This document shows, piece by piece, positions 15,425 to 30,960 of a stretch of DNA of 32,479 nt (position 1 is its first letter; every line of letters starts with the position of its first letter). Source of the DNA: a virus; the IMG/VR virus record IMGVR_UViG_3300025117_000177, positions 1 through 32,479 of that record; one strand, 5' to 3'. The position numbers were made by a program, and so were the translations under genes. The notes beneath the pieces are model-generated. The model ran no database searches and was not told the origin of the DNA. It saw only the letters and a list, made by a program, of their open reading frames with translations.

Positions 15425-15880
15425 ATGACTGAATATGTAAAAGCCATACAGCTAGCTTCAGAACTAGCATCTAAGGGTGAATACGGACCAATCATATCTA
15501 AAATATTTCCAATTATTATCATATCTTTGACAGTATATTGGTTTTTTTATAAAGAATTTAGAGCAAAAAAATTAGCAGATATACGTGAAAAAGAAAACTT
15601 AGATCATAAAGCTCAGCTTTATAAATTAGCTGAAAACATGGGAAATTCCATAACAGAACTTTCAGTAATATATAACGCCCTCGATGAATTCATATCTAGC
15701 GTGGAAAAATTGGATATTAAACAATTTTGCATTGAGTCTAAACACTTTTATACTGGAAATGAAAAATATCAAATTGATATTAGAACAAAACTTGAAAGAA
15801 TTGAAGCATTGGGTATAGAAATAAGAGAAAAAGCAAACATTAACAGGGAGTTAATTCTCAATGCAAAACACAACGCTTAA
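15425..15880 (+). CDS. Small single-pass membrane protein
   Basis: 151 residues. After a 22-residue N-terminal helix comes one clear transmembrane segment (about 23-42, ISKIFPIIIISLTVYWFFY), then a positively charged stretch KEFRAKK, implying N-out/C-in topology. The cytoplasmic part (about 45-151) is helical and charged (LAENMGNSITELSVIYNAL; RTKLERIEALGIEIREKAN). The coding end overlaps the receiver-domain gene by 20 nt, so the two products are made together. There is no catalytic motif, no HAMP or histidine-kinase H-box, and it is too short for holin-endolysin logic (no lysis gene nearby). Best guess is a membrane anchor or sensor partner for the receiver protein. Unknown family. The ribosome binding site is weak. 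Confidence 0.78.
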   Translation: MTEYVKAIQLASELASKGEYGPIISKIFPIIIISLTVYWFFYKEFRAKKLADIREKENLDHKAQLYKLAENMGNSITELSVIYNALDEFISSVEKLDIKQFCIESKHFYTGNEKYQIDIRTKLERIEALGIEIREKANINRELILNAKHNA

Positions 15881-16364
15881 AAAAATCAGCAACATATTAT
15901 ACAAAAAATCACGAGTTATAATTGTTGATGATAATACTAAGCTTACAGAGATTGTTAAAAAGCATTTAGAAACGCAAGGTCGATTAATCGTAGATATTTC
16001 TGATAATGCAGAAGGCGCATTTAATAGAATAAAAATAATGAATTATGATATAGCCATAATTGATGTAATAATGCCTGAACATGATGGATTTTGGCTATTA
16101 GAACAAATAAAAACACTCAAAAAAGCACCACAAATAATAGTAATTTCTGGTTCATTAGATTTAGCAAAAAGCACAAAAGCTTATCAGTTAGGAGCAAAAC
16201 TTTTCATGCCTAAACCGTTTTCATGTATGGAATTGATAGAAGAAATAAAAAAGATTTTAAACAAATCAAATTTACGCGATCAAAACTATTATGAAGCGAA
16301 AAGCGCATTCAATTTAACAAACATGATGATGGAAAGATATTTTAGTGAAAAAGCAACTCGTTAA
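15861..16364 (+). CDS. Single-domain response regulator (receiver domain)
   Basis: 167 residues. A complete REC domain at about 17-134: acidic pair Asp23-Asp24 in IIVDDNTKL, phosphoacceptor Asp68 in IIDVIMPEHDG, Ser96 in VISGS (Thr/Ser switch), and Lys118 in MPKPF. All phosphorylation residues are intact. After the REC domain there are only about 33 residues (RDQNYYEAKSAFNLTNMMM) and no DNA-binding or enzymatic output domain, so it probably acts by protein contact, CheY/Spo0F style. GGGAG lies upstream of the ATG. No histidine kinase is present, so a host kinase would have to phosphorylate it. Its stop abuts the convergent dUTPase stop with no gap. Receiver proteins are rare in phages. Confidence 0.88.
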   Translation: MQNTTLKKISNILYKKSRVIIVDDNTKLTEIVKKHLETQGRLIVDISDNAEGAFNRIKIMNYDIAIIDVIMPEHDGFWLLEQIKTLKKAPQIIVISGSLDLAKSTKAYQLGAKLFMPKPFSCMELIEEIKKILNKSNLRDQNYYEAKSAFNLTNMMMERYFSEKATR

Positions 16365-24987: not shown

Positions 24988-25869
24988 TCACTTCCACAAA
25001 TATCTTATTATTTTACCCGCCATAAATGGATGCTGTAAAAATACCGTACCTAAACTAATCGAATCCGCAACTGCACCCATTATCACTGCGTCTTTGAAAG
25101 AATAAATACCTCCACCACCTATCACTGGCAATCTAACTGTATTTTTAATGCGTAGAACCGTTTCTAAAGCTGTTTCAAAAATAGGTATGCCTGATACTCC
25201 ACCGCCGCCAAATTTAGACAATGGCGAGGTTCTAGAACCATAAACGACTGACCATGGTATTGTATTTATGGCATCAATAGCGGCCACAAAACCCGATGAT
25301 TCTAAAAACTTCAAAATATAATCTGAAACATCGTAACCAACCTTTACAATGATTGGCAAATTTGTGTTTTCTTTGATACAACAACAAAAATGCCAAATTT
25401 TATTTGTCTGAAATTCATTGCAGCAAACATTTGGACACGATGAATTCAATTCTACAGCTATAAGATTACTACATTTATCTATAAGTTTTGCAGTTCTAGC
25501 TACTTCACGAATTGCTGTATCAAAATCATCTTCTGGATTTGGAGCTATAGATATAATAATTTTGTAATCATTTTTTTCTATGATTGGATAGCATTTATTG
25601 ACCCACCAATCAATTCCTTTATTACTTAACCCAAAAGAATTAACTGTTCCATTTTCTAAAAATCTGAATGTCTGCCAAGGTTTTATTGATCTAAAATTTC
25701 CTAATCTTGCTCTTGGAGTAATTGTTTTCGTTATAATTGTGATTTTTTTTACATCTATAACGTCAAACCACCGCAAAGGCCATTCCCAAAACCAACCTCT
25801 ACCAGTATAAGCTAATGAACCAGAAGCAGCCACTATTCTAGATATCTCTTTTCCATTTGAAAGTAACAT
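24988..25869 (-). CDS. pyrD: Dihydroorotate dehydrogenase, class 1
   Basis: 293 residues, about the usual length (300-310). Features: AASGSL near the N-terminus, TKTITPRARLGN (Lys48 and surroundings), catalytic base Cys145 in LNSSCPNV (141-148), Lys176 in IVKVGYD, Asn202 in AINTIP, GGGGVSGIPIFETAL and PVIGGGGIYSFKDA (FMN phosphate grip), and GTVFLQHP. A cysteine base marks class 1 (soluble; fumarate, or NAD with a PyrK partner); no pyrK is seen. It oxidises dihydroorotate to orotate in UMP synthesis. Unusual CC (149-150) and CCC (162-164) clusters lie close to the active-site loop. It begins 3 nt after the dihydroorotase stop, with GGTGAT as ribosome binding site, and converges on the fibre gene. 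Confidence 0.9.
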   Translation of the reverse strand: MLLSNGKEISRIVAASGSLAYTGRGWFWEWPLRWFDVIDVKKITIITKTITPRARLGNFRSIKPWQTFRFLENGTVNSFGLSNKGIDWWVNKCYPIIEKNDYKIIISIAPNPEDDFDTAIREVARTAKLIDKCSNLIAVELNSSCPNVCCNEFQTNKIWHFCCCIKENTNLPIIVKVGYDVSDYILKFLESSGFVAAIDAINTIPWSVVYGSRTSPLSKFGGGGVSGIPIFETALETVLRIKNTVRLPVIGGGGIYSFKDAVIMGAVADSISLGTVFLQHPFMAGKIIRYLWK

Positions 25870-25872
25870 AGA

Positions 25873-27141
25873 TCACCACATATTGAATTTATTAGAAACT
25901 CTATCAAAAACAAGACTTCCACGTATATAAGTAGCATCAACTACATATTGTAATTTTGTGTCAGAGTATGGAGACCAACTGCATTTTGAAAAACCACCAT
26001 CTTTAGGTATAGATACAGTATCTCCTAATTTAACGGGAGATACTATGCTAAAATCAGCATCTTTTCCAATCGCTAATTCTCCCTTTTTATGAAAATTCAC
26101 TATTTTTGCTGGATTTGTTGCATACCAATGAGCAATTTGAACCATAGAATGATGCTTAATAAGCATTATTGGCAGAATATATTGAATAGAAGGAAGTCCA
26201 GCAGGAACTAAATCAATTCTATTGCATTTTTCTGCAAGCAAGTGTGGAGCATGATCAGATGCAATACAATCAATTGTTTTATCGTACAATGCATTTAACA
26301 AAGCTTCATTATCTTGCCTTTTCCTTAAAGGAGGATTCACCTTATAAATATTTTCTTCAGCATTATCTTGATTCAAAAAAAGATGATGCAAAGTCACCTC
26401 ACAGGTAATTAGATGAGCTATATTCGGTCTTTGTCTTTTAAAATCTTTGATTATTTCAACTTCCATTTCTGTTGAAACGTGACAAATATGTAATCTCGCA
26501 TTGTATCTAGCAGCACACACTAAGCAATCTATAAGAGCATTCCTGATTGATTCTTCGCTGCGTATTTTTGAATGCGATCCAAAGATCAATTCATTTTGTC
26601 TGATTGTTACTTCATCTTCGCAATGCACAGCGATAAGAGTTTTTTGTCCAAATAATCTAAAAATTTCTTCTACATCTTTAAAATTATTGTATAGTTCTCC
26701 GCTTTTAGAGAGATACAATTTTATTCCTACTATTCTTGGAAGTAATTCTTCAATATTATTAAGATTTTTTATATCTTTAACACCCAAAAAAAATCCATAA
26801 TCGCAATATCTTTTTGCTATGGCTATCGCAAATTTTTGATCAAGAGTTATTCTATCCACTGTTGGCGGATCATTATTGGGCATATCAACTATACTAGTAA
26901 CACCTCCTGCTAATGCTGCTTTAGTACCACTTTCAAAATCTTCTTTATGGGTGGCTCCAGGATCTCTAAAATGGGTATGAATATCAACGCAACCAGGAAA
27001 AACAAACCCACCAGCACAGTCCAAAATATCTCCAGAATACTCATTGCTATCTGTAAAGCCTTTGATTTTACCATATTCAACCACCATGTTAGTTTCGTGA
27101 ATTCTATCCCATAGTACTAATTTTCCATTAGTAACTAGCAT
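25873..27141 (-). CDS. pyrC: Dihydroorotase, class I
   Basis: 422 residues from the ATG at 27141 (GGAG six bases before it; the frame extends 15 codons upstream without support). Amidohydrolase metal site intact: His55-Thr-His57 in DIHTHFRDPG, Lys141 in GIKLYLSKSGE, His173 in VHCED, His221 in HICHVS, Asp296 in ASDHAPH; the substrate-binding DMPNNDPPT segment is present. It cyclises carbamoyl aspartate to dihydroorotate, the step before dihydroorotate dehydrogenase, whose gene follows. The Asp-His-Ala-Pro-His signature favours a true dihydroorotase over hydantoinase or allantoinase. Transcribed with dihydroorotate dehydrogenase and the upstream small genes. Confidence 0.92.
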   Translation of the reverse strand: MLVTNGKLVLWDRIHETNMVVEYGKIKGFTDSNEYSGDILDCAGGFVFPGCVDIHTHFRDPGATHKEDFESGTKAALAGGVTSIVDMPNNDPPTVDRITLDQKFAIAIAKRYCDYGFFLGVKDIKNLNNIEELLPRIVGIKLYLSKSGELYNNFKDVEEIFRLFGQKTLIAVHCEDEVTIRQNELIFGSHSKIRSEESIRNALIDCLVCAARYNARLHICHVSTEMEVEIIKDFKRQRPNIAHLITCEVTLHHLFLNQDNAEENIYKVNPPLRKRQDNEALLNALYDKTIDCIASDHAPHLLAEKCNRIDLVPAGLPSIQYILPIMLIKHHSMVQIAHWYATNPAKIVNFHKKGELAIGKDADFSIVSPVKLGDTVSIPKDGGFSKCSWSPYSDTKLQYVVDATYIRGSLVFDRVSNKFNMW

Positions 27142-27187
27142 GAAAAACTCCAAAAAAATTATGTTCAAATGATGTTTTTGTTTCAAA

Positions 27188-30313: not shown

Positions 30314-30387
30314 TCTGGATGGGGAGATTCGAACTCCCGACTTTCTGCTCCCAGAGCAGACACGCTACCAAGCTGCGCTACATCCAG
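30314..30387 (-). tRNA. tRNA-Pro (anticodon UGG)
   Basis: Minus-strand sequence starts CTGGATGTAGCGCAGC. Acceptor stem CTGGATG pairs with CATCCAG, discriminator A73. Anticodon stem-loop TCTGC-TCTGGGA-GCAGA gives UGG; T-arm GGGAGTTCGAATCTCCC. CCA is not encoded. Last gene of a tRNA-Ser/tmRNA/tRNA-Pro cassette. Confidence 0.95.
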
Positions 30388-30402
30388 TTTTCAAACAATC
30401 AA

Positions 30403-30434
30403 GGATAGCACCTAGATTTTACTAGGTGCTATCC
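30403..30434. other. Perfect 13-bp hairpin between tmRNA and tRNA-Pro
   Basis: GGATAGCACCTAG (30403-30415), loop ATTTTA, CTAGGTGCTATCC (30422-30434). On the minus strand the stem is followed by TTGATTGTTTG, only a loose T-run, so it may be a weak terminator that lowers tRNA-Pro output or an RNase III-type processing signal separating tmRNA from tRNA. Confidence 0.6.
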
Positions 30435-30465
30435 TCCACCCTCGTGCCGAAGGGTTTCTAAATAA

Positions 30466-30858
30466 TGGAGGTGTCGGGAATCGAACCCGAGTCCGAAGAA
30501 GCATCCACCAAGACATTTTTACAGGTTTAGGCACTCTGAGAACGACACATCAGAGCGAGTACCAGACTCTGAGTGGGTTGCCAGATTTACTGGCTAGGTG
30601 CTGGGAATTTACTACAAACCTTTTACCCAGCTTCAGGTTTGCAGGCTTATCTCACTAACTGGAAGCCATCCCAGTAGCTAGTCTCTAATGTACGCAACCA
30701 TCCGCCTAGAGACCTCGGCAGCGGTCACGGCTACTCAAGCAGCTTTAGCGTATTCGTCGGCACTTATACAGTGCGGTCGGCTTTTTAACGAGGCCATCCG
30801 ACCAACCCCGACCTGTGTCGTTAGATTCCGCAGTCCCCGTCGAAACCAGGTCACCCCC
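30466..30858 (-). ncRNA. ssrA: tmRNA (one-piece)
   Basis: 393 nt on the minus strand. 5' end GGGGGTGACCTGGTTTCGAC and 3' end with the T-arm GGGTTCGATTCCC and CACCTCC-A pair as the tRNA-like domain acceptor stem (7 bp with one G-U). CCA is not encoded. The internal tag frame is at 30761-30735. Several pseudoknot-like complementary segments lie downstream of the tag. It rescues stalled ribosomes by trans-translation with host SmpB; no phage smpB is seen. Phage-borne tmRNAs are known but rare. Bounded by tRNA-Ser upstream (17 nt away) and tRNA-Pro downstream. Confidence 0.93.
30735..30761 (-). other. tmRNA tag peptide frame (ADEYAKAA-stop)
   Basis: Within the tmRNA: resume codon GCC after ATAAGT, then GAC GAA TAC GCT AAA GCT GCT TGA, encoding ADEYAKAA. 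Most bacterial tags end ALAA or AVAA, the signal read by ClpXP; here Lys replaces the usual Leu. The resume codon is inferred from the conserved A-rich context upstream and from tag length. Confidence 0.8.
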
Positions 30859-30875
30859 AAATTTTCAATCAACTA

Positions 30876-30960
30876 AGGAGGGAGTGGGATTCGAACCCAC
30901 GGACCATTTCTGATCACCGGTTTTCAAGACCGGATCCATAAACCGCTCGGACATCCCTCC
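30876..30960 (-). tRNA. tRNA-Ser (anticodon UGA)
   Basis: Minus-strand sequence starts GGAGGGATGTCCGAGCGG, typical of tRNA-Ser. Acceptor GGAGGGA pairs with TCCCTCC; anticodon stem-loop CCGGT-CTTGAAA-ACCGG gives UGA; a long variable arm (GATCAGAAATGGTC) confirms class II; T-arm GTGGGTTCGAATCCCAC. The discriminator is U rather than the usual G of bacterial tRNA-Ser. CCA is not encoded. Confidence 0.95.

Follow-up and report, generated by a model that had tools for sequence, protein, structure and literature searches.

The window, which is the whole of IMG/VR record IMGVR_UViG_3300025117_000177 (32,479 bases, 34% G+C), carries the gene set of a tailed phage: head maturation protease, portal, large terminase, primase, DnaB-like helicase and dCMP deaminase, together with a dUTPase, a UvrD-like helicase and an HU-like protein. 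Toward its right end, a one-piece tmRNA gene lies with tRNA-Ser and tRNA-Pro genes in a tight cluster on one strand, the same as that of the phage genes (Table 1). The terminator-like hairpin within this cluster was the single hit of a terminator scan for which 1.2 were expected in shuffled sequences, and nine bases of one of its arms recur within the tmRNA at 30594–30602. At the IS607-type element near the contig end, the local G+C content falls to about 23–28%.

Table 1. Features of the tmRNA locus and its surroundings, in window coordinates.
Feature	Position	Strand	Detection and remarks
tRNA-Pro (UGG)	30314..30387	minus	Downstream of the tmRNA; ARAGORN, RF00005 61.8 bits
Perfect 14-bp hairpin with 6-nt loop, terminator-like	30402..30435	minus	Inverted repeat I5; between tmRNA and tRNA-Pro
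One-piece tmRNA (ssrA)	30466..30858	minus	ARAGORN; RF00023 129.1 bits, full-length model match
3′ tRNA-like end	30466..30501	minus	T arm CGGGUUCGAUUCCCG, acceptor CACCUCC, discriminator A
Tag frame GCC GAC GAA UAC GCU AAA GCU GCU UGA (ADEYAKAA*)	30735..30761	minus	ARAGORN coding part 98–124; UAUAAGU context
Lys codon of the tag	30744–30746	minus	
5′ acceptor strand GGGGGUG	30852..30858	minus	Holds G3 of the G3-U70 alanine identity pair
tRNA-Ser (UGA)	30876..30960	minus	17 nt upstream of the tmRNA; ARAGORN, RF00005 54.4 bits
IS607-type serine transposase, then a TnpB-like frame that is truncated where the contig ends	31755–32479	plus	

Two other gene pairs of the fragment may be mentioned. Adjoining genes for a dihydroorotate dehydrogenase-like protein (PF01180) and a dihydroorotase/amidohydrolase-like protein (PF01979) occupy 24988–27186 on the minus strand, so that this phage fragment encodes two pyrimidine synthesis steps; its dCMP deaminase and dUTPase genes lie elsewhere. 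A response-regulator receiver domain protein (PF00072) adjoins a small protein of no known family at 15425–16364 on the plus strand, opposite to most phage genes.

The tmRNA gene was recognised by two programs. ARAGORN placed it at exactly the positions in Table 1 with the tag ADEYAKAA*, and returned no tmRNA from 200 random sequences of equal length drawn from a Markov-1 model. The match to the Rfam tmRNA model RF00023 spans 30463–30858 and covers model positions 1–374, i.e., the full model, with an E-value of 1.8e-50 and a score far above the gathering score of 47, which is the cut-off for a covariance-model match; the model for two-piece, alpha-type tmRNA (RF01849) gave no match to it. All seven positions of the acceptor stem (GGGGGUG/CACCUCC) are paired, G3-U70 among them, the discriminator A is adjacent, and a T arm is present, in keeping with the tRNA-like end of tmRNA, which lacks an anticodon arm. 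CCA is not encoded, AUUA standing at that place. A plain minimum free energy (MFE) fold, nested and with pseudoknots left out, was modestly better than that of shuffled sequences (z −1.65), a value that is uninformative because tmRNA is normally held together by pseudoknots (usually four). The RF00023 model does align the pseudoknot region, but with variable helices that carry many unpaired marks and low posterior values.

The tag frame is preceded by UAUAAGU and closed by UGA. The resume context UAUAAGU-GCC is in agreement with the Rfam consensus, which fixes the frame and makes GCC the resume codon. In the tagged product, the alanine carried by tmRNA itself precedes the encoded tag. The C-terminal Ala-Ala of the ssrA tag, which directs proteolysis, can be read in ADEYAKAA. 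In sequence, the hallmarks of a working tmRNA appear intact. An earlier, sequence-only reading of this DNA had proposed a complete one-piece tmRNA with tRNA-like ends, a tag ending in A-K-A-A and this same resume frame, and had named an RF00023 search as the check on boundaries and resume codon; each of these points is upheld by the ARAGORN call, the full-length covariance match, the acceptor pairing and the resume context. Two of the outcomes that would have spoken against it, a resume codon in a different frame and an RNA unable to fold as tmRNA, did not come about.

Phage-encoded tmRNAs are an established class, found in 402 of 18,146 phage genomes (PMC9004378) and also in huge phages (PMC7162821). 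Those of Bacillus phage G, mycobacteriophages (e.g., Bxz1 and Wildcat), huge phages and Gordonia phages are likewise complete genes with a tag frame (PMC4131195, PMC9004378, PMC7162821). Their tags differ from the present one: most of those in IMG/VR end in LAA, those of Gordonia phages end in AALV, and AKAA occurs in none sampled. Two scans of IMG/VR with 5′-end patterns, which are samples and were counted as separate sets, yielded at least 154 unique tmRNAs by ARAGORN. Among the matches listed, 71 were one-piece tmRNAs, of which 55 have tags ending in LAA and only two have a basic residue in the third-last position. These two (L064, 1024–1374; L120, 6096–6447) are related to each other and have acidic tags ending in ELKAA (DEEEIYCELKAA and DEDEIYGELKAA). 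A scan of IMG/VR with an AKAA-tmRNA pattern gave 11 matches, which were rejected as chance since none is a tmRNA; ADEYAKAA as a degenerate pattern was not found in IMG/VR, nor was a D-E-[YF]-AKAA tmRNA in GTDB contigs. Lysine at the third-last position is therefore rare among the viral tmRNAs sampled. One further viral-contig tmRNA, at L021 3352–3763, has the unusual tag ANNTKHYASEPARMVA.

AKAA is, however, a natural ending in bacteria. Of 397 Campylobacterota genomes, at least 83 match the AKAA tag pattern (a minimum, as one or more Helicobacter AKAA tags escape it), and so does one of 398 Pseudomonadota genomes, where the tag is ANDSVYAKAA, a form close to that of the phage. ARAGORN returned ANNVKFAPAYAKAA, VNNTNYAPAYAKAA and similar tags from Campylobacterota genomes, and the published tag of H. 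pylori, VNNTDYAPAYAKAA, ends in AYAKAA (PMC12493166 Table 1). Many members of Campylobacter and Helicobacter thus have AKAA at the end of their chromosomal tag (PMC12493166 Table 1; PMC2862035). The term non-canonical holds for the phage tag only against the majority ALAA ending, and the suggestion that a third-last lysine lies outside the normal range finds no support, given these chromosomal tags and ANDSVYAKAA in Pseudomonadota.

One explanation would be that the phage tag copies, or descends from, that of a host whose own tag ends in AKAA, such as a member of Campylobacterota. The chromosomal tmRNAs of Campylobacter and Helicobacter (e.g., ANNVKFAPAYAKAA and VNNTDYAPAYAKAA) share YAKAA with the phage, the last five residues being identical, and VNNTNYAPAYAKAA has the same ending; in addition, proteins related to the IS607-type transposase near the contig end occur in Helicobacter and Campylobacter. 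However, those bacterial tags are longer, are encoded by a chromosomal gene and start with ANN or VNN, which is dominant in the Campylobacterota sample and unlike the ADE front of the phage tag. Tags of the Campylobacterota type are also absent from the 25 tmRNAs most similar to that of the window in a limited comparison set; 24 of these 25 carry AND-type tags, mostly ending in ALAA. The nearest tmRNA sequences in that limited set are Pseudomonadota ANDENYALAA types, with about 76% identity over 325 aligned positions, which share the tag form A.DE..YA.AA with the phage but have Leu at the third-last position in nearly all cases and a tag two residues longer. The transposase is only 45–47% identical to Helicobacter proteins, as against 57–58% for its best matches in Segatella and a Neisseriaceae assembly; these taxa are unrelated, which makes the transposase uninformative as to the host, and it was dropped as a host indicator. 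The terminase was dropped likewise, being equally distant from Campylobacterota and Pseudomonadota proteins. A tag matched to an AKAA host is accordingly an unlikely, although not far-fetched, explanation.

tmRNA genes are frequent sites of prophage integration, and some tmRNAs on viral contigs are consequently host genes. The LKAA-tag tmRNA of L064 has an integrase-like gene beside it (seen by eye, not by family search), which suggests that it is a host tmRNA used as an attachment site. The possibility that the tmRNA of the window is similarly a host gene that borders an integrated prophage draws on this precedent and on the region to the right of the tRNA cluster, which has no phage family match and only the IS607 element. 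However, the tmRNA lies between two tRNAs on the strand of the phage genes. Apart from the IS607 transposase, no phage integrase was recognised among the window proteins scanned, and the 3′ end of the tmRNA occurs only once in the window; the locus therefore does not resemble a host tmRNA at a prophage boundary. A host origin is judged very unlikely, and the tmRNA is most likely of phage origin, a judgement tempered by the short right-hand continuation, as the contig ends 1.6 kb beyond the tmRNA, inside the IS607-type element.

The sequence-only reading had further suggested that the lysine ending may protect tagged phage proteins from proteolysis. The tmRNA would then rescue ribosomes while its altered tag lets the tagged products escape the proteases of the host. 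Besides the absence of a third-last Lys from the other viral tmRNAs sampled, except for the related LKAA pair, this proposal could appeal to H. pylori tmRNA, which has the same Lys: with it, an E. coli ssrA mutant regains growth, but lambda-imm-P22 does not propagate, and the Lys is one of the possible reasons that its authors list for this failure (PMC2862035). Being short and without the AND(E/N) front of E. coli-type tags, the phage tag may also bind the adaptor SspB differently. However, ClpX recognition in E. coli is dominated by the last two alanines and the carboxylate, and changes of the third-last residue increase the KM of ClpXP only modestly (PMC7652416). The classical stabilising mutation converts exactly those last two alanines to DD (PMC2862035), and the final Ala-Ala-COO− is intact in ADEYAKAA. 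Together with the ordinary chromosomal occurrence of AKAA in Campylobacter and Helicobacter, these observations do not bear out the proposed protection. A modest weakening of the degron by the third-last Lys is plausible; sparing of phage products from degradation is unsupported, and a tmRNA with an attenuated degron is very unlikely. About as unlikely is the bolder form of this idea, in which the short tag would avoid the host adaptor and weaken ClpX binding such that rescued phage proteins outlast host-tagged ones and rescue is split from proteolysis.

The locus is best explained, with good confidence, as a conventional one-piece tmRNA that the phage encodes within a small cluster of tRNA genes. 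Alanyl-tRNA synthetase of the host would charge the phage tmRNA via G3-U70, and during infection host SmpB and EF-Tu would bring it to ribosomes that stall at broken or nonstop messages. Translation would resume at GCC, append A-ADEYAKAA and terminate at UGA, freeing the ribosome. The C-terminal Ala-Ala degron should still be readable by ClpXP or similar proteases of the host, perhaps with a somewhat lower affinity owing to the third-last Lys. This Lys would represent natural variation among working bacterial tags, arising by drift from an ALAA-type tag or as a match to a host with an AKAA tag. Against the conventional reading stands the finding that H. pylori tmRNA replaces E. coli tmRNA only partly, with Lys as one proposed reason (PMC2862035). 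The 32.5-kb fragment also contains no smpB, and no phage relative was found: searches of IMG/VR with the terminase, dihydroorotase and dCMP deaminase gave none that is close or syntenic, and DNA comparisons gave nothing beyond the tmRNA T arm among phages and nothing among plasmids.

The phage tmRNA described here is new in having a tag that none of the other viral tmRNAs sampled shares. The lysine ending of Campylobacter and Helicobacter recurs in one Pseudomonadota genome, in two LKAA loci of IMG/VR and in the present phage, and a departure from LAA should not by itself be taken as a sign of a stabilised tag. If it were true that the tag is stable in its host, the phage would provide a clean natural case bearing on whether phages want ribosome rescue without proteolysis.
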